Of a DNA stretch of 39,903 bases, positions 3,171 to 25,277 are shown piece by piece. Position 1 is the stretch's first letter. Each line of letters begins with the position of its first letter. The stretch comes from an uncultured SAR86 cluster bacterium (GTDB lineage Bacteria > Pseudomonadota > Gammaproteobacteria > Magnimaribacterales > Magnimaribacteraceae). The translations under genes were made by a program, and so were the position numbers. The stretch covers positions 1 through 39,903 of the forward strand of contig CALJGK010000056.1 of NCBI GenBank assembly GCA_938075195.1. The letters are read 5' to 3'. The notes under the pieces were generated by a model. The model was given only the letters and a program-made list of their open reading frames with translations, was not told where the DNA came from and ran no database searches.

Positions 3171-3178
3171 TAAATAAT

Positions 3179-4900
3179 TTATGGTATTGCGACACCTGCG
3201 CTTGGTCTTCTGGGATCCGCAGACCCATAAAAGTAGTCACCCTCTTTCATAATCGCTTGAACACTCCCCATAGTAGTAGATGGATAAAGTTTATATCCTT
3301 TTTCTGTTAAAAGCCTTTCAGTATCTGGTCCGAATCCACTTTCTATCATTAAGACTTCAGGCAACCACTGATGATGAATTCTTGGACTATGAACTGCTTG
3401 AGCTATATTCATATCATGATCCATTACATTGAGCGCGACTTGCAATACCGTTGTGATGATCCTGCTTCCTCCTGGACTGCCAAAAACCATATAAGGTTCA
3501 TTATTCTTAAAAATAATTGTTGGAGTCATAGAGGATAAAGGTCTTTTATTTCCCTCTATAGCATTGGCTTCAGAGCCTAATAATCCATAACCATTGGGTG
3601 TTCCGGGTTTGGAAGAAAAGTCATCCATCTCATTATTAATTAACATCCCAGTTCCAGGAATCATCATCCCAGATCCATAAGAAAAATTAAGAGTGTAAGT
3701 ATTTGAGACAGCATTACCTAATGAGTCCATTACAGAAAAATGAGTGGTGTCTGGGCTTTCATAAGGATAAGGATTGCCTGGAGATACCTCATCAGACGGT
3801 GTTACCTTGTCACCAGAAATAAAAACATTTAAAGACTTCGCATATTCCTTACTAGTTAAACTAGAAGGGACTTTATAAAAATCAGTATCTCCTAAATATT
3901 TACTTCTATCGGCATAAGCTCTTTTCATAACCTCAGCGAGTATATGTATACTCTCCGCACTGCCGAAACCCATTTCCTTAATAGGAAATTCTTCAAGCAT
4001 ATTAAGCATTTGAATTAAATGAGTGCCACCTGAACTACTGGGAGGCATAGATACAATTTTATAATCTTTATAATCACCTACGAGCGGTTCTCGCTCAACA
4101 ATATTATAGTTTTTGAGATCTTGTAGAGTAATCAGACCTCCATTCTTTTGCATTTCTTTAACAATCAACTCTGCTATCTCACCTTTGTAAAAAGCATCTG
4201 GGCCAAGTTCGCTGAGTAATTTGAGTGTTCGAGCAAGATCCTTTTGTATAAGGATTTCTCCTGCAACATAAAGACTCTTATCTTCTTTATAAAAAACTTT
4301 GGCGGCCGCTTCATTAGACGACAGCCTGGCTCTATATCGTTTTGAAGCTAATGTATTAGCCAGATCATGAGGTATCTCAAATCCCTCCTCCGCAAGCTTG
4401 ATAGCAGGTTTTAGTATTTCCTCCCAGCTCAATGTTCCGTAATTGATTAGAGCATGATGAAAGCCTGCCACTGATCCCGGTACCCCCGCAGATAACAATG
4501 AAAACTGAGCTTTCTTCTTATCATAGTTTCCTTCTTCATCTAAGAATAGATCTCTGAATGCTCCTGAAGGTGCCTTCTCTCGGTAGTCTATCGCTATCGT
4601 TTCATTCTTATCTTTGAGATGAATGATCATAAATCCACCCCCACCTATATTACCCGCCCTTGGTAAAACAACAGCAAGAGCTAGTCCCGTTGCCACAGCT
4701 GCATCTACTGCATTACCTCCATCTTTTAAGATTTTCGCCCCCACTTCACTCGCAATTTTTCTCTGCGAAACAACCATCCCATAATCATCTATAACAGGAT
4801 GGTTTATTGATTGGTATTCAATAATGGGTAAGTCATTGGCAAACAAGGAGTGCAAAACTAATAAGGAGATAACAGAAGTAAGAATTTTTTTCATTTTCAA
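3179..4900 (-). CDS. ggt: Gamma-glutamyltransferase (second paralog)
   Basis: This 573-aa protein is a second complete gamma-glutamyltransferase with a signal peptide (about 1-21, ending LFA). It shares GGNAVDAAVA (61-70), the NIGGGGF loop (84-90), R107 in IDYREKAP, PPSSSGG (286-292) and a predicted processing site at D384-T385 in DTTHFS. GSPGGSRI is in the small-subunit half. Residues 115-135 contain a charged stretch not matched in the neighbour. Two in-frame ATGs (M1 and M3) are possible starts; no clear Shine-Dalgarno separates them. It sits between a beta-lactamase-like hydrolase upstream and the first ggt downstream, 8 bases away. The likely role is periplasmic salvage of glutathione or gamma-glutamyl peptides for Cys, Gly and Glu. 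The family call is firm and the substrate unknown. Confidence 0.95.
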   Translation of the reverse strand: MKMKKILTSVISLLVLHSLFANDLPIIEYQSINHPVIDDYGMVVSQRKIASEVGAKILKDGGNAVDAAVATGLALAVVLPRAGNIGGGGFMIIHLKDKNETIAIDYREKAPSGAFRDLFLDEEGNYDKKKAQFSLLSAGVPGSVAGFHHALINYGTLSWEEILKPAIKLAEEGFEIPHDLANTLASKRYRARLSSNEAAAKVFYKEDKSLYVAGEILIQKDLARTLKLLSELGPDAFYKGEIAELIVKEMQKNGGLITLQDLKNYNIVEREPLVGDYKDYKIVSMPPSSSGGTHLIQMLNMLEEFPIKEMGFGSAESIHILAEVMKRAYADRSKYLGDTDFYKVPSSLTSKEYAKSLNVFISGDKVTPSDEVSPGNPYPYESPDTTHFSVMDSLGNAVSNTYTLNFSYGSGMMIPGTGMLINNEMDDFSSKPGTPNGYGLLGSEANAIEGNKRPLSSMTPTIIFKNNEPYMVFGSPGGSRIITTVLQVALNVMDHDMNIAQAVHSPRIHHQWLPEVLMIESGFGPDTERLLTEKGYKLYPSTTMGSVQAIMKEGDYFYGSADPRRPSAGVAIP

Positions 4901-9669: not shown

Positions 9670-9692
9670 TTGTTAAATTTTCTTTATTTTAT

Positions 9693-9740
9693 AATCTATT
9701 GAATAATTATTTAATTTTAACTCTATACGGGCAATAGATT
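9693..9740. repeat. 9-bp inverted repeat in divergent promoter region
   Basis: AATCTATTG (9693-9701) and its exact reverse complement CAATAGATT (9732-9740) flank 30 AT-rich bases. They lie between the starts of the divergent minus-strand run (9669) and the SDR (9769). They could be operator half-sites or a long-loop hairpin. The region is AT-rich, so chance is possible. Confidence 0.35.
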
Positions 9741-9768
9741 TAAGTTATATTTATACCAAGGGGAAAAA

Positions 9769-10512
9769 ATGAAAAGTATATTAATTACTGGTGCGAGTGG
9801 TGGACTAGGATCTGAAATAGCAATTCAAGCAGGCGCGAATGGTTACAAGGTTGGACTCATTGACTTAAATGAAGAAAAAATCAATGAATTACAATCAAAA
9901 ATTCCTAATTCCCTAGCGCTTCCTACTGATGTTACAAACGAGGATTCTGTTAATGAGTCTATCAAGAAGTTTGGTGATACACCTTCTGCGCTTGTAAATT
10001 GTGCAGGCATAGTAAGATTTGGAAGTTTATTGGAACAAAATGTCCAAGACTTCAAAGATGTCATTGCGGTCAATCTTCTGAGTAGCTTTATTGTTTCTTG
10101 TGCCACTGCAAAACTGATGGAAGAAAAAGGGGCAGGAAATATTATCAATATCAGCTCTATTAGCGGAGGGAAACATCCGGCAATTCACTCAGGTGCCTAT
10201 GCAGCTGCTAAGGCGGGTCTGGTGATGCTCAGTGAGCAGATGTCTTTAGAATGGGGAAAACTTGGAATAAGAGTTAATACAGTTTCGCCAGGATTTATAG
10301 ATGCTGGCATGTCTGCATCTCATTACCAAGATGCCGAAGAAAGAAAGAAAAGAGAGGCGATGGTTCCAATTCAAAGAATAGGCACAGCTGACGATATAGC
10401 AAAAGTTGTCATGTTCTTACTATCAGAAGATTCATCTTACATACATGGTGAAAATATATTAGTAGATGGCGGTGTAATGAATAGCGTTCTTGCTAATATC
10501 GGAAGAACTTAA
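9769..10512 (+). CDS. Canonical short-chain dehydrogenase/reductase
   Basis: This 247-aa classical SDR has the glycine loop TGASGGLG (7-14), an acidic D32 after beta-2 (favouring NAD(H)), NCAG (77-80), catalytic S130, Y144 and K148 in YAAAK, and the SPGFIDAGM segment. The C-terminus has GENILVDGG. The likely reaction is reversible oxidation of a secondary alcohol or a dihydrodiol-like intermediate. A strong AAGGGGA precedes the ATG. It is the first gene of the apparent catabolic island and converges on the amidohydrolase gene 4 bases away. Its context with a Rieske oxygenase makes a diol- or hydroxy-dehydrogenase role attractive (inference). Confidence 0.92.
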   Translation: MKSILITGASGGLGSEIAIQAGANGYKVGLIDLNEEKINELQSKIPNSLALPTDVTNEDSVNESIKKFGDTPSALVNCAGIVRFGSLLEQNVQDFKDVIAVNLLSSFIVSCATAKLMEEKGAGNIINISSISGGKHPAIHSGAYAAAKAGLVMLSEQMSLEWGKLGIRVNTVSPGFIDAGMSASHYQDAEERKKREAMVPIQRIGTADDIAKVVMFLLSEDSSYIHGENILVDGGVMNSVLANIGRT

Positions 10513-10516
10513 AGGT

Positions 10517-11494
10517 CTAACTAAGTCGTAATAGCTTCTTTGCATTACCTGATAGAAAATCAGGGGTTTCTTTAAGTGAATCTCTTTTGGGCTGATCCCA
10601 TCCTAAAAAGTTAGTACCAAGAACTTGTCTGTCAGATCCAACAAGACTATCTAATAAGTCTAGGGACTCTTTTTGATGTACATGGTTATCAAACCAAATA
10701 AGCTTGAGCTGTCTTAAGAATTCACCCTTTTCTCTTATCCAATCAGGAGATGTGTGACGATTCTCTGCTGCTAAAGCCATTCTTCCAGCTAAAAATGCAA
10801 TATTGCCACCGCCATGGCTTATGCAAATATCAAGATCTGGATTCTTATGTAAGACACCACCAAATATAATATTGCCTAGAGCTGCGGTTTCATCATTAGC
10901 AAACCCTACAGTCAAATCTAGGCTGTAATTATCTAATCTATTATCAGAGTAAGGACCATTTATTCCTTGAGGTGCGGGGTGAATAAACAAAGGAACATCC
11001 AGTTCAACAAATGTCTTATAAAGTTCATCCATAGAGTGATGGCTGATACCTGAAGGAAAATCAGTTCCTATATAAGCTCCTTTTAGACCTAAATCTTGAG
11101 TACATCTTTCTAGTTCTTTTGATGCTTCATGAGGATCTTGCATGGGCAAAGTGGCAAAACCTCCTAAAGAATCTTCATGTCCGAGTATGGCTTTGGCCAT
11201 AGTGTCATTATGCATCTTGCAATAATCTATCGCCAAATGCTTATCAATGAAATGGAAATAAGTGATAGGGTTTGGTGACAGAACCTGATAATCGACTCCC
11301 AAATTATTCATGGCCTCAAGCCTTAAACCGAGATCCATAAAAGGGGTATTCCTATAACGAACTCCCTCTAATTTATAATCTCCTACTCTAAACCATGGAT
11401 TATTTGCATCGCCGCCTATCTCGGGACCTTCTTTATCGAGAAAATTTAAAGTTTCTTCAAAAACGATATGTGCATGAACATCGATAACTTTCAT
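10517..11494 (-). CDS. ACMSD-like amidohydrolase-2 family protein
   Basis: This 325-aa protein is of the amidohydrolase-related (PF04909-type) TIM-barrel family that includes 2-amino-3-carboxymuconate semialdehyde decarboxylase and hydroxybenzoate decarboxylases. Metal-ligand candidates are H7 and H9 in VHAH, H172 in FIHP and H227 in SHGGG. The position normally filled by the catalytic Asp (GSD) reads G293-T-N295 in VLGTNFLGWD. It is the last gene of a minus operon, 12 bases after the Rieske oxygenase. The likely role is decarboxylation or hydrolytic cleavage of a ring-cleavage or carboxylated intermediate. If N295 truly replaces the Asp, the chemistry may differ from ACMSD. Confidence 0.85.
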   Translation of the reverse strand: MKVIDVHAHIVFEETLNFLDKEGPEIGGDANNPWFRVGDYKLEGVRYRNTPFMDLGLRLEAMNNLGVDYQVLSPNPITYFHFIDKHLAIDYCKMHNDTMAKAILGHEDSLGGFATLPMQDPHEASKELERCTQDLGLKGAYIGTDFPSGISHHSMDELYKTFVELDVPLFIHPAPQGINGPYSDNRLDNYSLDLTVGFANDETAALGNIIFGGVLHKNPDLDICISHGGGNIAFLAGRMALAAENRHTSPDWIREKGEFLRQLKLIWFDNHVHQKESLDLLDSLVGSDRQVLGTNFLGWDQPKRDSLKETPDFLSGNAKKLLRLS

Positions 11495-11506
11495 AGAATC
11501 TGTGGA

Positions 11507-12715
11507 CTACCAATCTGTTCCATTCTTAGACATAAAGTCTTTGATCCAAGAATGGTAGTTTTGAACGGCAGGTTCATTTTTTCCGTAAATAAAGTTATTT
11601 GAGCCAAGATGAGAAATATTGTCTTGAATCTCAAGTCCAATTTTATAATCTTCATCAACAACAGCTTGTCTGACCATTTCACTGAACTCATTGGTATTTG
11701 CTATTTCTTCTGGGGTCTTGGGTTCTTTTGCTGATAAAATTGTTTGCCTGGTAATAGTTCTATTCGGTGAAGCAGTTGGGAAAATTTGACTCACCAGACA
11801 GTGATCTCCTAACACGCCGGATATTGAAAGATTTGGAAACCCTGAATGAATAAGTCTTATATTTTCTAGTGGTGAATCCCATTCAGACTCAGGCTTTCCA
11901 ATTAAATCTTTTAAAGATTTTCTACCAAAAGTTAAGCGCTGGTGAGGACCATAAGTATCCAATACCAATAGATTTCCAACTGTATGCTTCCCAACGGTAT
12001 CTCCATGCAGTTGATTATGATGATAGGCTTCCAGATATCCATCTAAAGCGACCTTCCATCCGGGTCCCACCAATTCTCTCTGCTCATGAATATGCCACTC
12101 TTTAAGATTTAAAGTCTCTAGCTCGTCAGTAAAGTCTCCAAGCCACTGATCTATATCAAATGTTTCTCCCGGAGAAAGCATTACCCATACCAGTCCTGAC
12201 CTTTCGGCGCACTCCAGCTCGATTAGACCAAATTCTTCTTTTTGTATTTCACCAAAAGTTTTTTCGCCATACATACCAACGAGCTTTCCTTGATGATCAT
12301 AAGTCCAAGCATGATAAGGACAAATAAAATTTCTTTTTACTCCGGAACCTTCTTCACAAACCTTTGAGCCTCTGTGTCTGCAAACATTTAAGAAAGCTCT
12401 AATCTTGTGATTCTTATCTTTTGTGATCAAAACAGGTGTATCGATAACATTCATCGACCTATAAGAATTTTCTTCTGGAAGTTCGCTACTTAGACATAAG
12501 GCCAATGGTAGATGTTTAAATATTCTCTCTACTTCTTCTTTATATCGAGTTTCGTTTATATAAGCATCTATTGAATTAGGCATCACTTCAGGTGCCTGAT
12601 CTGTTGTTTTGTTTTCGTAATGCGCTAAAGCTCTTCTTACAAGAGTTAGCATTTCATCAGAATGAGGGCTATTCTTAATCAACTTTTTGTTCGTTTCTTT
12701 TGAAATTCCGCCCAA
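11507..12715 (-). CDS. Rieske non-heme iron oxygenase, alpha subunit
   Basis: Counted from an ATG at 12715 the protein is 402 aa. The N-terminal Rieske domain binds [2Fe-2S] through C112-x-H114 and C132-x2-H135. The C-terminal catalytic domain carries bridging D225, Fe ligands H232 and H237 (EAYHHNQLH) and D356 (VDEDY). It should hydroxylate or dihydroxylate an aromatic or otherwise hydrophobic substrate, using electrons from a ferredoxin/reductase not present in this window. The ATG at 12715 overlaps the upstream gene by 37 bases. A TTG at 12682 forms a TTGA stop-start overlap with that gene and is a plausible real start, since the first 11 residues look unconserved. ATG 12652 is a third option. 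Confidence 0.93.
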   Translation of the reverse strand: MGGISKETNKKLIKNSPHSDEMLTLVRRALAHYENKTTDQAPEVMPNSIDAYINETRYKEEVERIFKHLPLALCLSSELPEENSYRSMNVIDTPVLITKDKNHKIRAFLNVCRHRGSKVCEEGSGVKRNFICPYHAWTYDHQGKLVGMYGEKTFGEIQKEEFGLIELECAERSGLVWVMLSPGETFDIDQWLGDFTDELETLNLKEWHIHEQRELVGPGWKVALDGYLEAYHHNQLHGDTVGKHTVGNLLVLDTYGPHQRLTFGRKSLKDLIGKPESEWDSPLENIRLIHSGFPNLSISGVLGDHCLVSQIFPTASPNRTITRQTILSAKEPKTPEEIANTNEFSEMVRQAVVDEDYKIGLEIQDNISHLGSNNFIYGKNEPAVQNYHSWIKDFMSKNGTDW

Positions 12716-13236
12716 GAAGGTATGGATTCAGGTATATCTGCTGCTATTTTACTTTCTCCCATGTTGACTCTCATTGGATCATTTAAGCTATCTAAATAAT
12801 CTTCTGATTTAACGTAATAGAAAAAATTGATGGTTCTTTTGAAGAACTTCCAAGTGCCCTCTTTTTTTGAATATAAATCATCGTAACGCATGGCTGCTAA
12901 GCTTGCGACTCCATCTCTTGTTGTCTCAGCGTGACTATATACAGTTCCTTCTGCAAGATGATTATCTTCAGGATTGATTGAGATAGTTACATCATGCGTC
13001 CAATGAAAAGAGGGTCCACGCGATAGGAAAACTTCATGATACATATCTAATATATTTTGACGTCCTTTGCTTTGTAGTGAACCATTAGGGGAATCAAATG
13101 AAGCATCAATGGTAAATATTTTTTCAAGTGCCTCTAAATCTTGTCTATCGCAAGATTCTGCATAATTAGAGACAAGCTCTCTAATTTCATCCTTAGCTTC
13201 TAAAACTTCGAGTCTTTTTAATATGTCTTCACTCAT
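12679..13236 (-). CDS. SnoaL/NTF2-like protein (possible Rieske small-subunit-type partner)
   Basis: This 185-aa protein has the alpha+beta cone pattern of NTF2-like proteins: an N-terminal helix DEIRELVSNYAESCDRQD (16-33), ALEKIFTIDASFDSPNGS, and central strands including WTHDVTISI and AEGTVYSHAE. The SnoaL-like branch includes cyclases, dehydratases and beta subunits of ring-hydroxylating dioxygenases. Its position immediately upstream of, and overlapping, the Rieske alpha-subunit gene makes a beta-subunit or accessory isomerase/dehydratase role likely. It starts 11 bases after the glyoxalase stop. Known two-subunit dioxygenases usually have the alpha gene first, so the order here is reversed. 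Confidence 0.8.
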   Translation of the reverse strand: MSEDILKRLEVLEAKDEIRELVSNYAESCDRQDLEALEKIFTIDASFDSPNGSLQSKGRQNILDMYHEVFLSRGPSFHWTHDVTISINPEDNHLAEGTVYSHAETTRDGVASLAAMRYDDLYSKKEGTWKFFKRTINFFYYVKSEDYLDSLNDPMRVNMGESKIAADIPESIPSWAEFQKKRTKS

Positions 13237-13247
13237 GCTAAATCAAT

Positions 13248-13760
13248 TTAAAATTGAGACGAACCCCTGGCTGACAAAATCTCTATCCAGTAGCCATCCG
13301 GGTCTTTAATAAAGGCCAAGCCCTTCATGGCGCCATCATCAGGTTTCTTAACAAACTCTATATTCTGTTCTTCAAAACGTTTTGAGGCTGCATAAACATC
13401 TGGAACAGTAATGCCTATATGACCAAATCCTCTAGGATCAGAGTTTCCATCATGATAAGAAAAAGATTCATCTTTTTCAGTTCCCCAATTATGGGTCAAC
13501 TCAAGCATTGCTTTTTGACTAAAGGCATATTCAGCTCTTTTCACAGGATCATTAGGTACTTCTTCATCGAAATCTCTTAGATAACCCAAGAAGAAAAGAC
13601 TAAACTCCATTTCTGGAAAGTCTAATTGCTTTATAAGTGTCATGCCTAATTTGTTGACATAGAAATCCAATGAAATCTCTGGATCTTTGATCCTGAGCAT
13701 CGTTTGATTAAAAATAAAACCCTCAGTGCCCAACGCATTTGGTTTTGTTAGTTCATCCAT
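13248..13760 (-). CDS. gloA: Glyoxalase I (lactoylglutathione lyase), eukaryote-type zinc form
   Basis: From the ATG at 13760 the protein is 170 aa, beginning [11 protein letters not shown]. That start has a TGGGG Shine-Dalgarno about 9 bases upstream; a longer reading to 13811 would need a TTG and has none. The sequence follows the long human-type glyoxalase I closely, with [40 protein letters not shown] and [10 protein letters not shown]. Metal ligands (long numbering) are Q36, E104, H131 and E177. It isomerises the hemithioacetal of methylglyoxal and glutathione. It is the first gene of a minus operon with an NTF2-like protein, a Rieske oxygenase and an amidohydrolase, so it may instead act on a pathway aldehyde-glutathione adduct (inference). 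Confidence 0.9.
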
Positions 13761-13871
13761 ATTGTTTACCCCAGCACTTATTATAGACAGCATATTCAAG
13801 AAAAATGACAAAAAATTAATCTTTCACTAATTTCGACGAAGGGTAGTAATAGAAAAAAAAGGGGTTAATTG

Positions 13872-13901
13872 TTGTTAATTAATCAGATTTATTGGTAAAT
13901 T
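13872..13901 (+). promoter_or_regulatory. Candidate promoter for the TonB receptor operon
   Basis: TTGTTA (13872-13877) and TAAATT (13896-13901) are spaced 18 bp and the -10 is preceded by TGG, an extended -10 arrangement. Transcription would start near 13908, just before the inverted repeat. An alternative pair is TTGGTA (13893) with TATAAA (13917), which would place the inverted repeat over the -10. Confidence 0.4.
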
Positions 13902-13910
13902 AGGCGCACA

Positions 13911-13928
13911 ACGTCATATAAATGACGT
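13911..13928. promoter_or_regulatory. Perfect inverted repeat, candidate operator
   Basis: ACGTCAT-ATAA-ATGACGT is a perfect 7-bp inverted repeat with a 4-bp spacer, placed between the divergent operons and 24 bases upstream of the TonB receptor ATG. The symmetry and position fit a dimeric repressor site (TetR, GntR or LacI type). No regulator gene is in the window. Confidence 0.6.
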
Positions 13929-13952
13929 CAAAACAATTAATTGGGGAGAATT

Positions 13953-16112
13953 ATGAATTTTAAAAGCAAATATCTTTGCGCGTCATTGGTTATTTCATTC
14001 CTTTCATTTCCTGCATTTTCAGACGAACCAACTGAAAATAGTGCAACTACTTTGGATGAAATTATTGTCACTGCAAGAAAAAGAGAAGAATCTCTGCTAG
14101 ATATCTCAGAATCTGTTTCTGCTATCTCTGGTGCAGACATCGATGCTCGCAATATCAAAGGACTTGATAAAATTGGTTTACTTATTCCAAATCTTAACCT
14201 AGCTAAAAGAGCGGATGGTTTTCCTAACGTCTCTATGAGAGGTATAGGTGCATTTGGATTAACACAAGGTGTAGGTTTCTATTTAGACGATGTTCAGCTT
14301 TTTAGTGATGCTTCTTCTAGATTTGGTGATCTTGAAAGAATAGAAGTCCTAAAAGGACCTCAAGGTATCTTGTATGGTGGAAGTAACATTGGTGGTGCAA
14401 TTAAATTCGTAAGTAAAAGACCAAGTGCAGATGAAGGTTTTACTGGAAGAATTAAGTACCAGACAGGACAACAAGGTATAAATGATGCTGAGGTGTCTGC
14501 CAACATCCCTCTTCAAGGTGATTGGGCCATGAGAGTATTTAGTTATACAAGAGATGATGATGGTTTTATAACAAACCCGAATTCTGACGGTGTAGATAAT
14601 CAGCCCGTAAATATTGATAAGTATTCTGAAGATGGAACTAGAATTTCAATAGCAGGATCTTTATCAGATAATCTTTCAGTTTATGCTTCCGTAAGAAGAA
14701 ATGAATATGAAGGACCTGTAAATACATGGGCTAGAGAGCTTGGACAACCTGGTTCTTTTTTCTATCCGAAGCAACTCGATACAGGAACAAATTCCAGCAG
14801 AAATGCAGAAACAACTGCGGCTACTTTAGAACTTAATTGGTCTCTAGATGGTTTTGATATCACAACAATCACTTCTCAAACAGATACTGAAAGTACAAGA
14901 ATAACTGATGTTGATTTAACGCAATTCTGGTACTTCAATACTACAAGACCAGAAGAAATGGATGTGCTGACACAAGAAATACGCTTTACCTCAACAACTG
15001 ATAGTAATCTTCAGTGGATATTCGGCGGTTACATGTCAGATTATGAAAGGACAATGGACTCATTTTTAACTTTCGGTCCTGATGCAATTGGACTTGGGTT
15101 TGTGTTTGCTATGCCTTTCGAAAAAATTGTAGAAGAAAACACTCATAATGCCCTATTTGGAAATATATCTTATGAAGTTGATCAATGGAGATACGACTTT
15201 GGTCTTAGATATGACAAGTGGGAAGAAACAGAACTTAACCTAGATTCGGAAACTAATGGAGCAATTCATGGTGGAAAAGTTGATGATACAGAAACACTAC
15301 CTAGAGTTTCCATCACAAGAAGCTTCGATAATGGTTCTATTGCCTACTTCACTACCTCGCAAGGTTATGAACCTGGTGGATTAAATAATGGAGTTCCTTA
15401 CACGGATGCTGCAGGAAATAAACTACTAGGACAATTTGGTAAAGAAGAAGCTTTACAGAATGAATTAGGTTGGAAAGGAACAATGAACGAAGGAAGAACG
15501 TCTCTTTCATTAGCATATTTTGATATTGAATATAAAGATCGTGCATTCCAAGTTGTGGCGCCTAATCCAGGAGGTCCTGGACTTATTGAATATGTAACGA
15601 ATATAGGTGACAGTGATCAAAATGGTCTTGAACTTGAAGTCACTACGCAGGCCACAGATAATCTTGTGTTATCTTTTGCAGCTGGTTTTGTTAATTCAGA
15701 TTTTGCTGATGGAACTATCCTTGCCGACGGTACAGATTTAAGTGGTGTTACTCCTCCTGCCACTATAGACAAGAGTTTCTTGGTTGCAGCAGATTATTCA
15801 AATACTTTATCTAATGGCACAGAAATGACTCTAGGAGCTCAATGGAGCTTTACAGGTCAAGGTGTTGGAATGCCTGTTGTTGGAGCCTTAAAAAATCCTA
15901 GCTATAAAGTTCTGAATCTCCAAGCTGCATTTGTTACTGGACCTTGGGATTTCACGTTGACTTTAGATAATGCAATGAATGAAGACTACTATACAGATAT
16001 GGAAGTTTTTCCTAACTTATCCAATGACCAAGCGACAATTGGGGACACATTCATAATTGGAACATATGGTGTTCAAAAGCTTTTCCAAGCTAGCTTAAGC
16101 TACAACTTTTAG
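13953..16112 (+). CDS. TonB-dependent outer-membrane receptor
   Basis: From the ATG at 13953 the protein is 719 aa. TTGGGGAGA lies 4-12 bases upstream and decides this start over a TTG at 13941. A signal peptide (1-23, ending AFS) is followed by the TonB box region DEIIVT (35-40). The plug domain has SMRGIGAFG, FYLDDV, RIEVLKGPQGILYGG and GGAIKFVSKRP. The 22-strand barrel follows, ending in Phe (SLSYNF). Receptors of this class import siderophores, vitamins or, in marine bacteria, many organic compounds. No Fur box is seen upstream and the downstream genes are catabolic, so an organic substrate is more likely than iron (inference). The cupin gene begins 11 bases downstream. Confidence 0.95.
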   Translation: MNFKSKYLCASLVISFLSFPAFSDEPTENSATTLDEIIVTARKREESLLDISESVSAISGADIDARNIKGLDKIGLLIPNLNLAKRADGFPNVSMRGIGAFGLTQGVGFYLDDVQLFSDASSRFGDLERIEVLKGPQGILYGGSNIGGAIKFVSKRPSADEGFTGRIKYQTGQQGINDAEVSANIPLQGDWAMRVFSYTRDDDGFITNPNSDGVDNQPVNIDKYSEDGTRISIAGSLSDNLSVYASVRRNEYEGPVNTWARELGQPGSFFYPKQLDTGTNSSRNAETTAATLELNWSLDGFDITTITSQTDTESTRITDVDLTQFWYFNTTRPEEMDVLTQEIRFTSTTDSNLQWIFGGYMSDYERTMDSFLTFGPDAIGLGFVFAMPFEKIVEENTHNALFGNISYEVDQWRYDFGLRYDKWEETELNLDSETNGAIHGGKVDDTETLPRVSITRSFDNGSIAYFTTSQGYEPGGLNNGVPYTDAAGNKLLGQFGKEEALQNELGWKGTMNEGRTSLSLAYFDIEYKDRAFQVVAPNPGGPGLIEYVTNIGDSDQNGLELEVTTQATDNLVLSFAAGFVNSDFADGTILADGTDLSGVTPPATIDKSFLVAADYSNTLSNGTEMTLGAQWSFTGQGVGMPVVGALKNPSYKVLNLQAAFVTGPWDFTLTLDNAMNEDYYTDMEVFPNLSNDQATIGDTFIIGTYGVQKLFQASLSYNF

Positions 16113-16123
16113 AGGAAAAAATT

Positions 16124-17191
16124 ATGAGCGAAGTACCAAATCCTGAATATAACCCATCTGGAGTAGCGGACTGTATTGATACAAATAAACTACCCTGGAT
16201 GCCTCTCCCTAACGTTCCTGGAATGTCGATAAAGCCAGCTAGAGCGTCAGGTGAAAGTGGTATCTTTAGTTTAATCTTTAAACTAGAAGCAGGCAGTTCT
16301 TTGCCTGCTTCTGTTTACCTCGGAAGTATGGATATGCTGATCCTCTCTGGAAAGGCAGAATATACTCAAGAAGATGTTACGAGCATATTAAATCCTGGTA
16401 CCTGGGGTTTTGTATCTGCAAATTCTAGAGTAAATTCTTTTCATGCTATTGAAGAGACAGAAGTCTTAGCTAACTTTTATAGCGGAGTCGCATTTTTAAA
16501 TGATGATGGTTCTTTAAGCTCCTTATTTACTGCTCTTGACGTCCTGCAGATGGCTAAAGATTCTAAAATTACCTTGGTGCCTAACTCATTATCTGCATGT
16601 ATGGACTTAGATCCAGAAGCTTATAACGGTAATGGTGAGCCGCTTGCAATAACTGCTGGAAATGCAGGGAAGTTAGTAAATGACGTTGCCGATGCATCCA
16701 TCACCAACGAACTTACTCATCCACACTTTGTAGATACTAAAGCAGTACCTTGGCTGGTGTTGCCAGGCATGGAAGATGTAGGTCTTAAAATACTAAGAGT
16801 CAGTGAAGAAACTGGCTACGTATCTTTAATAGTGAGACACAATGGTGTAGCTGACCCTCATACACATATAGGTGCAAGCGATTTCCTAGTTCTTCAAGGT
16901 AGATTAGGAGTAAGAAACGGTCCTCCTGAAGGTTATGGTCCTGGAATATGGTTCTATGAACCTGCTGGTGCAAGACACAATGCCACTCAAAGAGTGACTG
17001 ATGAAGATCTAATATATACAGCTAACTTATATGGGCCAGTTATGTTTGACTCAGGTCCAGGTACTCAGATTGAATCACTACTTTCATGGGTAGAGTACAA
17101 AGGCATGGCTGAAGCAAACGGTATTAAATTAGTACCGAGCACCAAACCTGAAGATTCAAGTTTACTTGCCTGGGCTCCATTAAAGTCTTGA
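16124..17191 (+). CDS. Two-domain cupin protein (dihydroxyacetophenone-dioxygenase/ChrR-cupin-like)
   Basis: This 355-aa protein is an internal duplication of a cupin domain. Half 1 (about 18-130) contains LPWMPLPNVPGM and half 2 (about 204-320) contains VPWLVLPGMEDVG. Half 2 keeps the metal motif P245-H-T-H248-IGASDFLVLQG and a distal H285 (GARHN), consistent with a mononuclear Fe site. In half 1 the two histidine positions are A62 and V64, so only the second domain should bind metal. The layout recalls 2,4'-dihydroxyacetophenone dioxygenase and ChrR-type cupins. A GAGGAAAAA ribosome site precedes the ATG. Inferred role: oxygenolytic C-C cleavage or binding of an intermediate in the pathway served by the TonB receptor. 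Confidence 0.75.
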   Translation: MSEVPNPEYNPSGVADCIDTNKLPWMPLPNVPGMSIKPARASGESGIFSLIFKLEAGSSLPASVYLGSMDMLILSGKAEYTQEDVTSILNPGTWGFVSANSRVNSFHAIEETEVLANFYSGVAFLNDDGSLSSLFTALDVLQMAKDSKITLVPNSLSACMDLDPEAYNGNGEPLAITAGNAGKLVNDVADASITNELTHPHFVDTKAVPWLVLPGMEDVGLKILRVSEETGYVSLIVRHNGVADPHTHIGASDFLVLQGRLGVRNGPPEGYGPGIWFYEPAGARHNATQRVTDEDLIYTANLYGPVMFDSGPGTQIESLLSWVEYKGMAEANGIKLVPSTKPEDSSLLAWAPLKS

Positions 17192-17223
17192 TTTAATCTT
17201 TCAGAATAGGCCTAATTACGTAG

Positions 17224-18531
17224 GTGGGTAATTCTATTCTTCTTAACAATGCATCAATCATAGATGGAACTGGTTCTGTCCCCTATTCGGGACATATACA
17301 AATCATAGATGACAAGATTGTTTCTGTATCTAGGGAAGAAATAAAGCCCGAGAAAGAAAATACCGAAATTCTTAATTTAGAAGGTAAATTTATTATGCCT
17401 GGGCTAATCGATGCCCACTGTCATATAAGCTTTGATGAACCTAAGTCTAATGATGAACTTTTTTTTCACAGAAGAGAGGGCTTAGCAGCAATCATTGCTG
17501 GAACCAATGCACTGAAAGTACTTCAGTCAGGAGTAACAAGCTTTTTTGACGCAGATAGTCTCTATAGCGTGGGTGTTGATCTAAGAGATGCAATTGAAAG
17601 CGGAATTATCCAAGGTCCTAAGATGGCAGTTGGAGGAAATGCACTGATTACTTCGGCCGGAGGCACTGCCGGGAGACTTATACCTGATGAAGGAAAAAGA
17701 GGCTATGGTGCTGTTGTAACCAGTAAGGATGAAATCGTCCTAGAAATCAGAAGACAAATTAAAATGGGCGTGGATTGGATAAAAATTCATGTTTCTGGAA
17801 TGGTTCCAAGACAAACTTCAGAAGGAGAATTACAAGCGTGGAGTTTGGATGAACTCAAACTTGCCTGCGATACCGCACATGAATTAGGCATTCCTGTTGT
17901 AGGCCATTGCAGAGGTGCAGGAAGTGTTAAAGATTCGTTGCTTGCCGGTATGGATATGATCTTACATGGCACTTATATGGATGAAGAAGGCCTTGAGCTT
18001 ATGATTGATAAAAACATACCTTTAGTCCCTACTTTTACATTCCAAGCTAACTTGATTGACTATGCAGAAAGGATGGATGCCTCAAAAGACTACAAAGATA
18101 TCTTTGAGAAAGAGATACAAGATAACGTTCCCATGTTTAGAAAGGCCTTTGAAGCTGGAGTTCCTTTTTTATGTGGAAGTGAAACAGGATTCTCAGTAAC
18201 ACCTTATGGTGACTGGCATTACAAAGAGCTAGAGGTCTTTGTTGATAAACTTGGCTTAACGCCATTAGAGGCCATTACATGCGGAACAAAGAATGCCTCA
18301 CAAGCCATGAGAAGAGATGACATAGGTGTAATAGCTGAGGGTAAAGTGGCTGACCTTTTAGTACTCAGCGAAAATCCTTCTAAAGATGTTTCTGTATTAG
18401 GAAATAAAGAACTAATAGAAAAAGTTTATCTCAGTGGGAAAGAAGTTGATCTAAATCCAGCACCAAAAAGAATCAAAGATCCATCTGGGTGGAGAATCTC
18501 ATCTTACTCAAACAAAATTTTAGAAAAATAA
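17224..18531 (+). CDS. Metal-dependent amidohydrolase (imidazolonepropionase/prolidase-like branch)
   Basis: This 435-aa amidohydrolase starts at a GTG, which is needed to include the first beta strand (NSILLNNASIIDGTG). Motifs in order: IMPGLIDAHCH with H65 and H67, K187 in WIKIHVSG (likely carboxylated lysine), H228 in VGHCRG, H248 in ILHGTY, and FLCGSETGF with E320 where the family usually has Asp (GTD). The C-terminal strand EGKVADLLVLSENP is typical. A binuclear metal site hydrolysing a C-N or lactone bond is expected. It lies 32 bases after the cupin and 8 bases before the FAD dehydrogenase. No signal peptide is seen, so it is cytoplasmic. Confidence 0.88.
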   Translation: MGNSILLNNASIIDGTGSVPYSGHIQIIDDKIVSVSREEIKPEKENTEILNLEGKFIMPGLIDAHCHISFDEPKSNDELFFHRREGLAAIIAGTNALKVLQSGVTSFFDADSLYSVGVDLRDAIESGIIQGPKMAVGGNALITSAGGTAGRLIPDEGKRGYGAVVTSKDEIVLEIRRQIKMGVDWIKIHVSGMVPRQTSEGELQAWSLDELKLACDTAHELGIPVVGHCRGAGSVKDSLLAGMDMILHGTYMDEEGLELMIDKNIPLVPTFTFQANLIDYAERMDASKDYKDIFEKEIQDNVPMFRKAFEAGVPFLCGSETGFSVTPYGDWHYKELEVFVDKLGLTPLEAITCGTKNASQAMRRDDIGVIAEGKVADLLVLSENPSKDVSVLGNKELIEKVYLSGKEVDLNPAPKRIKDPSGWRISSYSNKILEK

Positions 18532-18539
18532 TTTCCTAA

Positions 18540-19916
18540 ATGACCATAATCCAAGATATTGAATCGGTTGTAGGCGAAAAAGGTTTAATAACCGGAAAAG
18601 ACGTATTCAATAGAAAAGCAGGCATCTGGATAGATGATGGAATAAGGGCAGATGCAATAGTTAGGCCAAAAGATACACTTGAGCTATCTAAAGTTTTAGC
18701 CATTTGTAATAAAAACAAACAAGCCGTCATTCCTCATGGGGGACTGACTGGATTGGCAGAAGGTGCCATCACTCAACAAGGCCAAATAGCAATTTCTTCT
18801 GAAAGATTAACAGCTATTGAAGAGGTTGATGAAATAGGTAGAACCATGACTCTTCAGGCAGGAGTGCCTTTGGAGAAGGCTCAAGAAGAGGCCGAAAAAT
18901 ATAATTTAATGCTTCCAGTGGATCTTGGTGCCAGAGGTTCTTGTACTGTTGGTGGGAATATTTCTACTAATGCTGGCGGTAACATGGTTATTAAATATGG
19001 AATGATGAGAGATTCAGTCTTAGGATTAGAGGCAGTATTAGCAGATGGTCAAGTCATGACATCTATGAATCAAATGCTCAAGAATAATTCAGGTTATGAT
19101 CTTAAACAGTTGTTTATAGGTACCGAAGGAACACTTGGCTATGTTACTAAAGCCGTCTTGAGACTTAGAGAAAAACCAAAAAGTACCAATACCGCTTTAT
19201 TGGCCATTGATTCTTTTGATGGTGTTATAAAGTTTCTTAAATTTATAGACAAAGGGCTTGGGGGCAGTCTCAGTGCATATGAAGTAATGTGGAAAAACTT
19301 CTACGAGCTTATTACTGTAACCGGATCGAACCATAACCCTCCCCTTCCCTGTGAGCATAATTACTATGTACTAATTGAAACATCCGGAGCAGATCAAGAA
19401 AAGGATACAGGTCATTTTGAACATCTATTAGAGCAGGGTCTAAGTAATCAGATAATTAAAGATGCGATAATTGCTCAGTCAGAATCTGAGAGATCACGCC
19501 TATGGGCTATAAGAGATGATGTAGAGCAACATTATCAAGAAGGACCCGTTAAGATGTTTGATGTCAGCATGCCTATTTCAGAAATGGAAAATTACGTGCA
19601 AGAAGTTAACAAGAGGTTTGCGGCTAACTGGGATGATTACAAATGTGTTGTATTTGGTCATGTTGGAGACGGTAATCTTCATGTGATAGGAGGCATAGGT
19701 AGCGATAACCTAAAAGAAATAAAGATTATGGAATCATGTATATATGAACCTTTAAAACCTATCAATGGGGCTGTCTCTGCAGAGCATGGAATAGGACTAG
19801 AGAAAAAAAATTATCTTCATATTTCTAGGTCTGAAACTGAAATAAATTTAATGAAATCTCTTAAAAAAGCTCTAGATCCAAATAATATTCTTAATCCAGG
19901 AAAAGTATTCGATTAA
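18540..19916 (+). CDS. GlcD-like FAD-linked dehydrogenase
   Basis: This 458-aa flavoprotein has the FAD_binding_4 (PCMH) and FAD-oxidase C domains. PHGGLTG (65-71), VGGNISTNAGG (137-147) and GTEGTLGYVTKAVL (194-207) form the FAD site. GHVGDGNLH (373-381) and AEHGIG (414-419) supply the catalytic/metal histidines of the 2-hydroxyacid dehydrogenase branch. Relatives oxidise glycolate, D-lactate or D-2-hydroxyglutarate; the substrate here is unknown. It is the last gene of the TonB receptor operon and converges on the ABC permease gene 14 bases away. The role is probably oxidation of a 2-hydroxy acid released by upstream steps (inference). Confidence 0.9.
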   Translation: MTIIQDIESVVGEKGLITGKDVFNRKAGIWIDDGIRADAIVRPKDTLELSKVLAICNKNKQAVIPHGGLTGLAEGAITQQGQIAISSERLTAIEEVDEIGRTMTLQAGVPLEKAQEEAEKYNLMLPVDLGARGSCTVGGNISTNAGGNMVIKYGMMRDSVLGLEAVLADGQVMTSMNQMLKNNSGYDLKQLFIGTEGTLGYVTKAVLRLREKPKSTNTALLAIDSFDGVIKFLKFIDKGLGGSLSAYEVMWKNFYELITVTGSNHNPPLPCEHNYYVLIETSGADQEKDTGHFEHLLEQGLSNQIIKDAIIAQSESERSRLWAIRDDVEQHYQEGPVKMFDVSMPISEMENYVQEVNKRFAANWDDYKCVVFGHVGDGNLHVIGGIGSDNLKEIKIMESCIYEPLKPINGAVSAEHGIGLEKKNYLHISRSETEINLMKSLKKALDPNNILNPGKVFD

Positions 19917-19930
19917 GTCAGTCCTGTAGA

Positions 19931-21774: not shown

Positions 21775-22974
21775 CTAAGCCTCTTCGAGAGGTAAAGATT
21801 GAAGGCCCAAAGCCTGTCGGTAAGTATTGTGGTAATGATGAAGAGCAGGTTCATTTTTTCCAAAGGTAAGATAATCTAAAGTTCCTGTCCTAAGACCTCG
21901 ATGCGAGGATGCTGCAACAACATAATCTTCATCTCTAATAACAGAAGCGAAGCCACCATATTGCTCTTCGAGTAGTTCTTTTCCATTAATACCTGTTTTT
22001 TCTAGTTCTTTTATATGTTCTAAAACATGAGGATAAAAATAAAATGAAATTTTAGAAAAACTTTTATGTGGTGAGTTTTCAGCGGGATACTCTTTCACCA
22101 AAAATGCACCCTCAGGAGTTGGCAAAAATATAATGTTTGGAAATAAATAATAAACAGGCAAAGATCCAGAGCAAATATCCCAATCCGATTCTGGTAATTT
22201 CCTCATTTCATCAATGGTTCTTTTACATAAAATTAATCTTCCATTTCTATTGAAACTATCAAACATTTGGCAGTTGCCATGAAAGCTTTGAAACAGAGAA
22301 TCTTTATGGAGCACCGAGAAATGATAAGTTTCTCCAAATGTATCTATTGCTAATTTCCAATTCATCTCAGTTTGGTATTCTTCTTCATTAGCAAAAGTAA
22401 GATCTTGAAAGTTCCAAGAGCTAAACTCTTCCATAAGATCTTTACCAAGTAGATCATCTAGCTCAATTTTTCCATCTTGAGAAGGATGAACCCAAAGAAA
22501 TCCAAATTTCTCAAGAGCCGGTAATTCTTTCAATCCGTAACAATCTTTATCGATTTTGCCAAATTGATCACTTTTGGGATAGCCTATCAAGGCCCCTTCG
22601 TTGTTATAAGTCCAGCCATGAAATGGACAAGAAAATTTGGATTTCTCACCTCTTTTCACATCTTCTACTATCACACCACGATGTGAACAGACGTTCGCAT
22701 AGGCCTTAAATTCTCCTGAACTATTCCTAGTTGCCAAAACCGGTACACCGAAGTCCTCTGTTGTCATGAATGTATCTGGTTTAGGAAGATCACCTGACAT
22801 ACCAATGATTTGGGGATGATTTAAAAAGAAAGTATCCCACTCTCTTTCAAATCTCTCACTAGAGGTATAAGTTTCGGCTGGAGTCCTAATAATCCCTCCA
22901 GCGTCTATATTGGTTTTTGCATCCAGGTGATTAATTAGACCTTTTAGCAATCTTAACTGTTCTTCTTTACGCAT
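21775..22974 (-). CDS. Rieske non-heme iron oxygenase (second)
   Basis: This 399-aa protein has the Rieske cluster ligands C96-x-H98 (VCSHRG) and C116-x2-H119 (CPFHGWTYN). The catalytic domain has bridging D211, Fe ligands H218 and H223 (ETYHFSVLH) and D350 (IRDEDY). It is only moderately similar to the first Rieske enzyme, with a different middle region (QDLTFANEEEYQTEMNWKLA), so a separate substrate is likely. It heads an operon with an ABC-2 exporter and is divergent from the photolyase-family gene (109 bases between). No ferredoxin or reductase gene is adjacent. Confidence 0.93.
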   Translation of the reverse strand: MRKEEQLRLLKGLINHLDAKTNIDAGGIIRTPAETYTSSERFEREWDTFFLNHPQIIGMSGDLPKPDTFMTTEDFGVPVLATRNSSGEFKAYANVCSHRGVIVEDVKRGEKSKFSCPFHGWTYNNEGALIGYPKSDQFGKIDKDCYGLKELPALEKFGFLWVHPSQDGKIELDDLLGKDLMEEFSSWNFQDLTFANEEEYQTEMNWKLAIDTFGETYHFSVLHKDSLFQSFHGNCQMFDSFNRNGRLILCKRTIDEMRKLPESDWDICSGSLPVYYLFPNIIFLPTPEGAFLVKEYPAENSPHKSFSKISFYFYPHVLEHIKELEKTGINGKELLEEQYGGFASVIRDEDYVVAASSHRGLRTGTLDYLTFGKNEPALHHYHNTYRQALGLQSLPLEEA

Positions 22975-23083
22975 AAATTGATTTTAACATTGATGATAAA
23001 AAATGGAAAAATGGAATGTATCATCTATCTTTTCATTCTATCGGTTATCATAAAAAACATTATTAAATCTAAAGATACTAATT

Positions 23084-24574
23084 ATGGAGAATAATCTTTT
23101 TATCATTCTTGGAAATCAACTCTTTGATCCTAACCTATTGAAGTCTAAAAATTGTACTGAGGTTTTCATGGCAGAAGACTTTGGTCTTTGCACTTATCAG
23201 AAACATCACAAGCTTAAGTTGTATTTATTCTTGGTGGCGATGAGGGAATATAAAGATGAACTAGAAGCAAGTGGAATCAAGGTTCACTACCATGAACTTA
23301 ATAAAAGGAATAAAAAGGAATCCTACGTAAATTGCCTGACGAATTTTTTAGAAAAAAATAAGATAACGAATATCAATTATTTTGAAATTGAAGATAAATC
23401 ATTTGAAGAAGAATTTAAAAATTTAGAAACACGCCAAATAGAATTAATAGAGCATCAAAACCCAATGTTCCTATTTTCAAGAAAAGAATTTCATGAATTT
23501 CATGAAGGTAAAAAAGTTTTTAGAATGGCCTCTTTTTATAAATATGCTAGAAAGAAATTGAATATTCTCATGGATAAACAAGATAATCCTCTAGGCGAGA
23601 AGTGGTCTTTTGATGAAGAAAATAGAAAAAAAATACCAAAAGGAAAAGAAATACCGACACTTCCAGAATGCGAACTCTCTAAACATCATGTTCCTATATG
23701 CACTCTGATTAATGAGCATTTTAGCGATCATCCTGGACTATTAAAAAATTTTTGGTTCCCTGTTTCAAGGGAACAAGCCAAGGAATGTTTAAGAATTTTT
23801 CTTAGAGATAGAATACATGAGTTTGGTATCTATGAAGATGCAATGCTCACTGAAAAGAACTTCTTATATCACAGCACGCTTAGTCCTGTTTTGAATATAG
23901 GGTTATTAACTCCCGCGGAAGTGATTAGTGAAACAATCAAAATATTTGAAAAAAATAATATCCCTTTAAATTCAACAGAGGGCTTTATTAGACAGATAAT
24001 TGGATGGAGGGAATTCATAAGAGGCATTTATCAAGAGCAAGGTAAGTTTCAAATGAGTCAAAACTACTGGAAACATAAAAACAAACTTACTGATAGTTGG
24101 TACGAAGGTACTACCGGAATCATACCTCTGGATGATTGCATTAAAAGTACCATCAATGATGGATATCATCATCACATACCAAGATTAATGGTAATAAGTA
24201 ATTTAATGAATATGTGCGAAGTAGATCCAAATGAAATCTATAAATGGTTTATGGAGATGTATATTGATTCCTCTGATTGGGTGATGGTTCCAAATGTTTA
24301 TGGAATGGCTACCTATGCAGATGGAGGTCTGATGTCCACTAAACCTTATACATGCGGATCAAATTATATTCTGAAGATGAGCAACTATTCTAAAGGTGAA
24401 TGGTGTAATACGGTTGATGGCCTCTATTGGCGTTTTACAGAAATTCACAGGCCTTTTTACGAAAAAAATGCACGAATGAGTTTCTTAACTCGCACACTTG
24501 ATAGACTTGATCCAGAAAGGAAAGAAATGATTTTTGAAAAAGCAGAAGAATTTATTGAAACCAATACCAAGTAA
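23084..24574 (+). CDS. Photolyase/cryptochrome of the FeS-BCP (DPRP) family
   Basis: This 496-aa protein has the N-terminal alpha/beta domain FIILGNQLFDPN (6-17) and the FAD-binding C-terminal domain. It includes TEGFIRQIIGWREFIRGIY (298-316), GYHHHIPRLMV (360-370), WFMEMYIDSSDWVMVPNVYG (388-407) and DGGLMSTKPY (413-422). This is the bacterial (6-4) photolyase/CryB-type branch, which normally carries a [4Fe-4S] cluster. Here the expected DYC-x2-C...CPFN segment is shortened to NYSKGEWCNTVDG (434-446), leaving only C352 and C441 as plausible former ligands. A role in repair of UV-damaged DNA, or as a light sensor, is expected. The ATG lies after an AT-rich leader without a strong Shine-Dalgarno. 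Confidence 0.9.
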   Translation: MENNLFIILGNQLFDPNLLKSKNCTEVFMAEDFGLCTYQKHHKLKLYLFLVAMREYKDELEASGIKVHYHELNKRNKKESYVNCLTNFLEKNKITNINYFEIEDKSFEEEFKNLETRQIELIEHQNPMFLFSRKEFHEFHEGKKVFRMASFYKYARKKLNILMDKQDNPLGEKWSFDEENRKKIPKGKEIPTLPECELSKHHVPICTLINEHFSDHPGLLKNFWFPVSREQAKECLRIFLRDRIHEFGIYEDAMLTEKNFLYHSTLSPVLNIGLLTPAEVISETIKIFEKNNIPLNSTEGFIRQIIGWREFIRGIYQEQGKFQMSQNYWKHKNKLTDSWYEGTTGIIPLDDCIKSTINDGYHHHIPRLMVISNLMNMCEVDPNEIYKWFMEMYIDSSDWVMVPNVYGMATYADGGLMSTKPYTCGSNYILKMSNYSKGEWCNTVDGLYWRFTEIHRPFYEKNARMSFLTRTLDRLDPERKEMIFEKAEEFIETNTK

Positions 24575-24579
24575 GATTC

Positions 24580-25257
24580 TTACCTGACTCGACTCAATAG
24601 AAGCCATATATATCTAAGAGATAAAAAGCTCGTTAAAGCACCTACAACATAGGTAAAAGCTGCAGCCTTAAGGACGTTCTTACATTGAGCATGATACTCG
24701 GAAGGAATTTTTTCTTTCAGGATAGGCATAGCCCTATTGAAACTGGCATCTATTTCTACATCCAGTGTAATCATGTGTATAAACACTCCAAGAAGGACTG
24801 ATAGCAATACCAGAATAAGACAAATTTTTATAAGGCCAAAAGATCCTGTTGCTAAAATTAAAGGCAATCCGCTATATAGAAAAACTCCACCTATTTTTGA
24901 TAGCCATTGAGTTCTTTCAACAATATTCGTGCGTTTAACTAAAGGTGCATATTCTTCTTTGTGTTGAATAGCATGACCTATTTCATGGCAAACGATTGCT
25001 AGAGAAGTAAGACTTTTTTTAGATAGCCTACCGGTTTGTACTCTTACCGTTCTTTCAGTCAAATCATAATGATCTACAAGACTGGTTTCTTCTATTTTTA
25101 CTCCCTCTAAGTTGTTTTCTTTTAAAATCAATTGGCCAAACTCGCCAGCATTAAAGGGCATATCTTCAAGCTCTTTATCATTGCTCTTCATGGCAGAATT
25201 TAACCAGAACTTAGGCAAGACAAAGACAACTAAGAAGAAGAAAAGGAATATAAGCAT
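24580..25257 (-). CDS. YugP-like neutral zinc metallopeptidase, membrane-bound
   Basis: This 225-aa protein has an N-terminal TM helix (2-21) and two or three later hydrophobic helices (about 130-165, 195-220). The zinc motif H91-E92-x2-H95 is in VCHEIGHAIQH. The preceding VDHYDLTERTVRVQTG and the following YAPLVKRTN match the Zn_peptidase_2 (PF04298) family. Its substrate is unknown. It converges on the photolyase gene with 5 bases between and lies 20 bases downstream of the P450 gene on the same strand. Confidence 0.88.
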   Translation of the reverse strand: MLIFLFFFLVVFVLPKFWLNSAMKSNDKELEDMPFNAGEFGQLILKENNLEGVKIEETSLVDHYDLTERTVRVQTGRLSKKSLTSLAIVCHEIGHAIQHKEEYAPLVKRTNIVERTQWLSKIGGVFLYSGLPLILATGSFGLIKICLILVLLSVLLGVFIHMITLDVEIDASFNRAMPILKEKIPSEYHAQCKNVLKAAAFTYVVGALTSFLSLRYIWLLLSRVR

Positions 25258-25277
25258 ATAGCTATATAACTATTAAT

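Follow-up and report, generated by a model that had tools for sequence, protein, structure and literature searches.

Among the closest described counterparts of the system considered here is acetylacetone degradation in Acinetobacter johnsonii, which relies on Dke1 and a glyoxalase. As far as the available text of the source describes it, the Dke1 route gives acetate and methylglyoxal, and the glyoxalase then leads on to lactate (PMC7226712). Here we analyse a stretch of 39,903 nucleotides from an uncultured SAR86 cluster bacterium (contig CALJGK010000056.1; hereafter the window), in which nine genes, among them a TonB-dependent receptor and a two-domain cupin (bicupin), make up a real, bounded and recurring catabolic island. 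The island resembles the A. johnsonii system in its 3-His cupin with the Dke1 residue pattern and in its glyoxalase I, and oxidation of a hydroxy acid is plausible in it. Unlike that system, its cupin has two domains, one of them degenerate, and it additionally holds the TonB receptor, a Rieske oxygenase, an SDR, and ACMSD-like and amidohydrolase enzymes. Judging from sequence, we consider it probable on balance that the centre of the island encodes the cleavage of a 1,3-diketone that feeds a glyoxalase route, the compound being imported by the TonB receptor; the published Dke1 route, in the available part of PMC7226712, has the same order of functions, which supports this reading. As an earlier note on this DNA had stated, no named pathway was found that matches the island as a whole, and no description of the nine-gene cluster was found among the matches listed, by title and beginning of abstract, in searches of the openly licensed PMC literature.

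Within 9769-19916, Pfam and NCBIfam confirmed the nine open reading frames with the families and order that the earlier note had given. An SDR oxidoreductase (9769..10512, + strand; Pfam adh_short_C2, 1.5e-53) is followed on the - strand by an ACMSD-like Amidohydro_2 enzyme (10517..11494; Pfam 4.1e-26, PDB 4igm 2.8e-32), a Rieske oxygenase alpha subunit (11507..12715; Pfam Rieske 2.3e-18, Ring_hydroxyl_A 2.2e-26), a SnoaL_4/NTF2-like protein (12679..13236; Pfam 2.8e-21) and the glyoxalase I (lactoylglutathione lyase; 13248..13811). On the + strand, the TonB-dependent receptor (13941..16112; Pfam Plug 3.2e-14) precedes the bicupin (16124..17191), an Amidohydro_1 enzyme of prolidase/imidazolonepropionase-like type (17224..18531; Pfam 2.7e-34, PDB 2qs8 1.8e-42) and a FAD-linked D-2-hydroxyacid dehydrogenase of the GlcD/D2HGDH type (18540..19916).

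Sister species carry an empty site at this position. The ABC permease that flanks the genes on the right is present in 11 of the 19 genomes of the genus, four of which also carry the bicupin. In all of the remaining seven, orf147 comes next after the permease, the tblastn matches of the two being 23-104 bases apart. Because permease and orf147 adjoin in 7/7 bicupin-free sister genomes, the limits of the island were set at 9670..19930, close to the earlier limits of 9769-19916. The nine genes are a real unit that was gained or lost as a whole, insertion and deletion both being possible. The guanine-cytosine content of the island (0.36-0.41, vs 0.33-0.39 in the rest of the window) gives no foreign signal. 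Mobile-element ends were considered and rejected, since no long repeat pairing both borders was among the repeats shown, no integrase was among the flanking genes scanned, and the single tRNA lies ~1.9 kb from the island.

Co-inheritance was assessed in 35 genomes of the family, including the source genome, with six of the nine proteins as queries; the SDR, the SnoaL protein and the TonB receptor were followed in selected loci only, outside these counts. A full-length bicupin match was found in 10 of the 35 genomes, and across the whole order in 10 of 203, every one in this family. The Rieske protein, at an identity of at least 72%, occurs in nine genomes, all bicupin-positive, and the ACMSD-like protein in the same nine; the contig of the tenth (G033) begins inside the cluster. 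The amidohydrolase was found in the 10 bicupin genomes and in G005, glyoxalase I in 12 genomes (the 10 with bicupin plus G003 and G004, which have Dke1 only), and the GlcD-like protein likewise in 12, eight of them bicupin-positive. Fisher tests, which ignore relatedness and genome incompleteness, gave 6e-8 to 3.6e-7 for bicupin against Rieske, ACMSD-like protein, amidohydrolase and glyoxalase I, and 7e-4 against GlcD. When glyoxalase I was set against the presence of bicupin or Dke1, the value was 1.2e-9, again with relatedness ignored. Bicupin, Rieske, ACMSD-like protein, glyoxalase I and amidohydrolase are co-inherited over the 35 genomes beyond chance.

The gene set also recurs at other loci. 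A Rieske relative (44-82%) is carried by 16 of 21 bicupin loci in named records; L015 and L017 begin inside the cluster, and L022, L023 and L034 are without Rieske in the stretch. The genome of L022 (G009) holds the glyoxalase, SnoaL, Rieske, ACMSD-like, SDR and amidohydrolase genes together on another contig. SDR relatives (44-84%) were found in nine cluster loci (L016, L018-L021, L035, L037, L038 and L044). In L035, from gamma proteobacterium HTCC2207, which we take to be of the SAR92 type, seven of the nine genes (glyoxalase, SnoaL, Rieske, SDR, ACMSD-like, amidohydrolase and bicupin) are retained at 44-59% in rearranged order, with no TonB or GlcD match. The earlier note had proposed a single catabolic unit with the TonB receptor and had named a lack of co-conservation as grounds against it; the genes proved to be co-inherited and the site empty as a unit, and the proposal holds on the empty site (7/7), the co-occurrence in 35 genomes and the gene set of L035.

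In ten alphaproteobacterial loci (L024-L033), a Rieske gene (44-47%) stands directly before a bicupin gene (65-66%); in L027, the only one of them with annotated neighbours, the adjoining genes look unrelated. The window bicupin is nearer to the alphaproteobacterial bicupins (65-67%) than to that of L035 (56%), whereas the window Rieske is nearer to L035 (59%) than to the alphaproteobacterial proteins (45-47%), and the parts therefore have separate histories. Searched against plasmids, the bicupin yielded a single match, weak and partial. Downstream of its cluster, L016 encodes an MFS transporter, a flavin monooxygenase and an acyl-CoA carboxylase. A monooxygenase with a sub-cutoff match to the NCBIfam PtlE model was seen downstream in three loci (L016, L017 and L020), and in L034 one comes immediately after the bicupin; those of L016 (13762-15366) and L034 (11098-12711) are 34% alike and represent two lineages. 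We take these enzymes to be of the Baeyer-Villiger type, and their position near the bicupin hints at terpenoid substrates. Separately, the Rieske gene of L020 (5343-6541), from a single-cell genome, matches in two pieces and may be disrupted or misassembled.

The bicupin itself has no NCBIfam match. Its profile finds PDB 2o1q at 2.4e-8 and the acetylacetone-cleaving 3bal at 0.00097. In its C-terminal domain, H246, H248 and H285 align with H62, H64 and H104 of Dke1 (3bal), the positions that presumably bind iron, and R264 and E279 align with Arg80 and Glu98, which we take, with Tyr70, to be second-sphere residues of Dke1. All five bicupin residues are invariant in 14/14 orthologues. The N-terminal domain is without the His pair and has Ala, Ser or Asp plus Val or Ile at the presumed positions. 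With two domains and remote similarity, the protein is not a Dke1 in the sense of a single-domain protein of high similarity; its residue pattern suggests that it most likely works like Dke1 without being classed as one. A structure model reached a mean predicted local distance difference test score of 84.6, and the best 21 matches of a fold search with it were oxalate decarboxylase, MncA and quercetinase bicupins (template modelling score 0.45-0.49 by query length), so that the search speaks only to the fold.

Relatives also encode a distinct protein of ~150 residues that is a true Dke1 orthologue (E=2e-59 to 3bal). It occurs in six of the 35 family genomes at 74-100%, and no match was found in the source genome (1.39 Mb, 82.6% complete). 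It lies between the TonB and bicupin genes in G017, G034 and G016, after the amidohydrolase in G009, and in G003 and G004 between glyoxalase I and GlcD, there with a TonB receptor and without the rest of the cluster. Four of these six genomes have a second, distant cupin (34-37%) elsewhere. Among 398 genomes sampled over the phylum, one has a Dke1 orthologue at E<=1e-40 (G234, locus L064), and it adjoins glyoxalase I. A plasmid search with Dke1 gave four matches, three of which were examined. On the Tistrella plasmid, gloA is next to Dke1 and an NTF2 protein; the Paraburkholderia plasmid carries Dke1, NTF2, SDRs, a VOC protein, two gloB genes and a D-lactate dehydrogenase; and in the unannotated Caballeronia SBC2 locus tblastn shows a VOC relative together with an NTF2-like protein. 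The first two resemble the island through Dke1, glyoxalase I or a VOC protein, an NTF2-like protein and an SDR, to which Paraburkholderia adds the D-lactate dehydrogenase and gloB. Unlike the island, these two stretches gave no match to a bicupin, Rieske or TonB relative, and the plasmid NTF2-like protein is a different, shorter one without a match to that of the window. Overall, seven of ten Dke1 loci have glyoxalase I (65-86%) on the same stretch, one (G016) has it split over contigs, and two carry only a distant VOC protein (30-33%).

The glyoxalase-family gene of the SAR86 island looks like a real glyoxalase I. It scores 191 bits against a cutoff of 120 with TIGR00068, the lactoylglutathione lyase equivalog, and matches the solved lactoylglutathione lyase 6l0u at 4.1e-68 over residues 28-181 (154 residues). 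The Gln/Glu/His/Glu positions that we take to be the metal ligands are present (Q36, E104, H131 and E177); the L035 glyoxalase has His at the first of them. The likely start is near 13760, as in most orthologues. At E<=1e-25, 23 of the 35 family genomes lack glyoxalase I, which thus does not behave as a housekeeping gene here. Among 13 copies in the family, 10 lie on the same contig as bicupin or Dke1 and two (G015, G016) are linked to it only across a contig break. The extra copy of G003 (G003:C24, L043:7714-8226), the one exception, has a PhyH-type dioxygenase, an alpha/beta hydrolase and an acyl-CoA dehydrogenase in its neighbourhood. Glyoxalase II was above cutoff in 9/10 bicupin genomes vs 9/25 others. 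The GlcD-like protein matches PDB 3pm9 at 2.1e-92 and D-2-hydroxyglutarate dehydrogenase 6lpn at 5.2e-80. It has FAD domains and the GHVGDGNLH and EHG motifs, which we take to be the signature (GHxGDGNxH plus EHG) of D-2-hydroxyacid dehydrogenases of the GlcD/D2HGDH type, and it is assigned to these; with a score under the GlcD equivalog cutoff, it is not named GlcD itself.

The Rieske protein has C-x-H...C-x2-H at 112-135 and HHNQLH at 232-237, presumably the cluster motif and catalytic His pair of a Rieske non-haem iron oxygenase, and has the features of an alpha subunit. The earlier note had paired it with the NTF2-like protein, and this pairing is not obligatory, as tblastn found no NTF2-like relative in the ten alphaproteobacterial stretches with Rieske and bicupin. 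At a threshold of 0.001, Pfam gave only SnoaL_4, DUF4440, SnoaL_2 and NTF2 for this protein and no match to the ring-hydroxylating beta-subunit model; weak PDB matches include LinA and a steroid isomerase. A role as Rieske beta subunit was rejected on the lack of a beta-subunit model match and on the alphaproteobacterial stretches. In the ACMSD-like protein, Asn295 aligns with Asp291 of solved ACMSD chains (PDB 4igm alignment), which we take to be a conserved metal ligand of ACMSD, and the Asn is kept in 8/8 aligned rows, which include a distant relative (22%). The protein thus lacks the conserved Asp of ACMSD-type decarboxylases, and because Asn stands in its place it may catalyse something other than a standard decarboxylation. 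The amidohydrolase falls among prolidase and imidazolonepropionase-like enzymes and has Glu320 in 8/8 aligned rows.

We infer the substrate, the order of reactions and every enzymatic activity of the following scheme. The TonB receptor would take up the compound; the Rieske oxygenase would hydroxylate it and the SDR would oxidise the resulting alcohol to a beta-diketone. The bicupin, with iron and O2, would then cleave the diketone to a carboxylate and an alpha-ketoaldehyde of the methylglyoxal type, which glyoxalase I and a glyoxalase II encoded elsewhere in the genome may convert to a D-2-hydroxy acid. The GlcD-like flavoenzyme would oxidise this to a 2-keto acid such as pyruvate, and the ACMSD-like enzyme and the amidohydrolase may process the other half of the cleaved compound.

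Several observations weigh against diketone cleavage feeding a glyoxalase route. The bicupin is remote from Dke1 (30-33% against Dke1 orthologues in the C-terminal domain), its match to 3bal has an E of only 0.00097 with the alignment split over both domains, and Tyr70 of Dke1 is replaced by Phe254. As bicupin and Dke1 coexist in 4 of the 10 bicupin genomes, the two may do different jobs. GlcD is loosely linked, having no match in 2/10 bicupin genomes and a match in four bicupin-free ones, and G009 and G013 hold only a 59-60% copy on another contig; the bicupin of G009 is also on a different contig from its other cluster genes. No glyoxalase I relative was found near the Rieske/bicupin pair in the ten alphaproteobacterial loci, and the stretch around G003:C24, one of the 13 glyoxalase copies of the family, shows no cupin, although it ends 1.7 kb past that gene.

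Other readings were also considered. The bicupin could resemble 2,4'-dihydroxyacetophenone dioxygenase (DAD), itself a 3-His iron cupin (H76, H78, H114) that cleaves a C-C bond beside a carbonyl, as the bicupin is predicted to do, and that in the available part of the source is single-domain and dimeric (PMC4219425). The bicupin would then split an alpha-hydroxyketone to yield formate and a carboxylate, and the glyoxalase would serve only to detoxify a by-product; in favour of this, the Tistrella Dke1 orthologue carries a DAD-family annotation. However, in the second metal motif of the bicupin a Glu precedes the His by six residues, which is the Dke1 pattern and not the EGHTLV of DAD, no DAD chain is among the six profile matches, and glyoxalase I follows the presence of bicupin or Dke1 without exception in the 35 genomes, a link for which DAD chemistry has no need. 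DAD-like chemistry is therefore rather unlikely. A reading as aromatic meta-cleavage, with the glyoxalase-family gene as an extradiol dioxygenase, would suit a cluster that combines a Rieske oxygenase with a VOC-superfamily gene, and SAR86 is described as aromatic-degrading, with the label catE/gloA, in the available text of PMC11582366. The earlier note had likewise included ring cleavage, and this part found no support: the protein scores above the lactoylglutathione lyase cutoff, aligns with solved glyoxalase I chains along 154 residues and has the four ligand positions, and neither Pfam nor NCBIfam names an extradiol or intradiol enzyme in the island. Meta-cleavage is accordingly improbable and was rejected.

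A siderophore island, with a ferric chelate entering through the receptor and the enzymes degrading its ligand, is improbable. The receptor does score best against a siderophore receptor family, yet far under the cutoff of that model (129 vs 223.5 bits), and no iron reductase or ABC importer is named in the island by Pfam or NCBIfam. That nine unrelated genes are adjacent by chance, as the two directions of transcription and the loose link of GlcD might suggest, has practically negligible probability given the empty site in 7/7 genomes, the co-occurrence, and the rearranged yet retained set in L035. Returning to 1,3-diketone cleavage, a more specific version names a source of the compound. The dinoflagellate Prorocentrum makes a natural marine 1,3-diketone, 1-(2,6,6-trimethyl-4-hydroxycyclohexenyl)-1,3-butanedione, an apocarotenoid seemingly derived from peridinin according to the available parts of two articles (PMC9230497, PMC11351557). 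Its cleavage would give methylglyoxal and a ring acid, or acetate and a ring ketoaldehyde. We infer the link to this diketone, which is one candidate substrate; that the island is a dedicated path for such carotenoid-derived 1,3-diketones of phytoplankton, with a TonB receptor that imports the apocarotenoid and a bicupin that founds a new family of C-C-cleaving dioxygenases, is an unlikely extension.

The TonB receptor, with a likely start at 13953, reaches the cutoff of none of the 23 NCBIfam models listed; to our knowledge, it is not known what most SAR86 TonB receptors import. Between the divergent glyoxalase and TonB genes, a perfect 7-4-7 palindrome (13911..13928) may be a weak candidate operator. 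Its pairing is kept with changed bases in the nearest relative, L015, and was not found in the other relatives inspected; arms of at least 7 arose in 191/1000 mononucleotide shuffles. Upstream of the SDR, at 9713-9753, the element AATTTTAACTCT ... TTTAAGTTATATTTA recurs in L019 and L021 and is a possible promoter. Promoter and terminator scans yielded no more than shuffles.

Outside the island, a second Rieske oxygenase and a P450 are encoded at 21775-26606; this Rieske gene is present in 7/7 empty-site stretches and the P450 in 6/7, the seventh stretch starting too late to show it. At 1470-4900, two different gamma-glutamyltransferase genes lie in tandem beside a DASS anion symporter, both in 6/7 sister stretches. 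A protein of 743 residues (35675-37906) matches Pfam only over residues 78-224 (DUF305), with no other match at 1e-10.

According to the available text of PMC11582366, SAR86 accounts for as much as 6% of the microbial community at the ocean surface, and catE/gloA is a broad, near-universal SAR86 category. Because the island gene looks like a glyoxalase I, catE/gloA in that text is not readable as catechol dioxygenase gene by gene. The chemistry of the island is a variation on known chemistry and not a new kind of system. Taken together, one SAR86 TonB receptor gains a bounded set of enzymes, present in some species and missing in their sisters, and with it a testable chemistry that may lead from a 1,3-diketone through an alpha-ketoaldehyde to a hydroxy acid.

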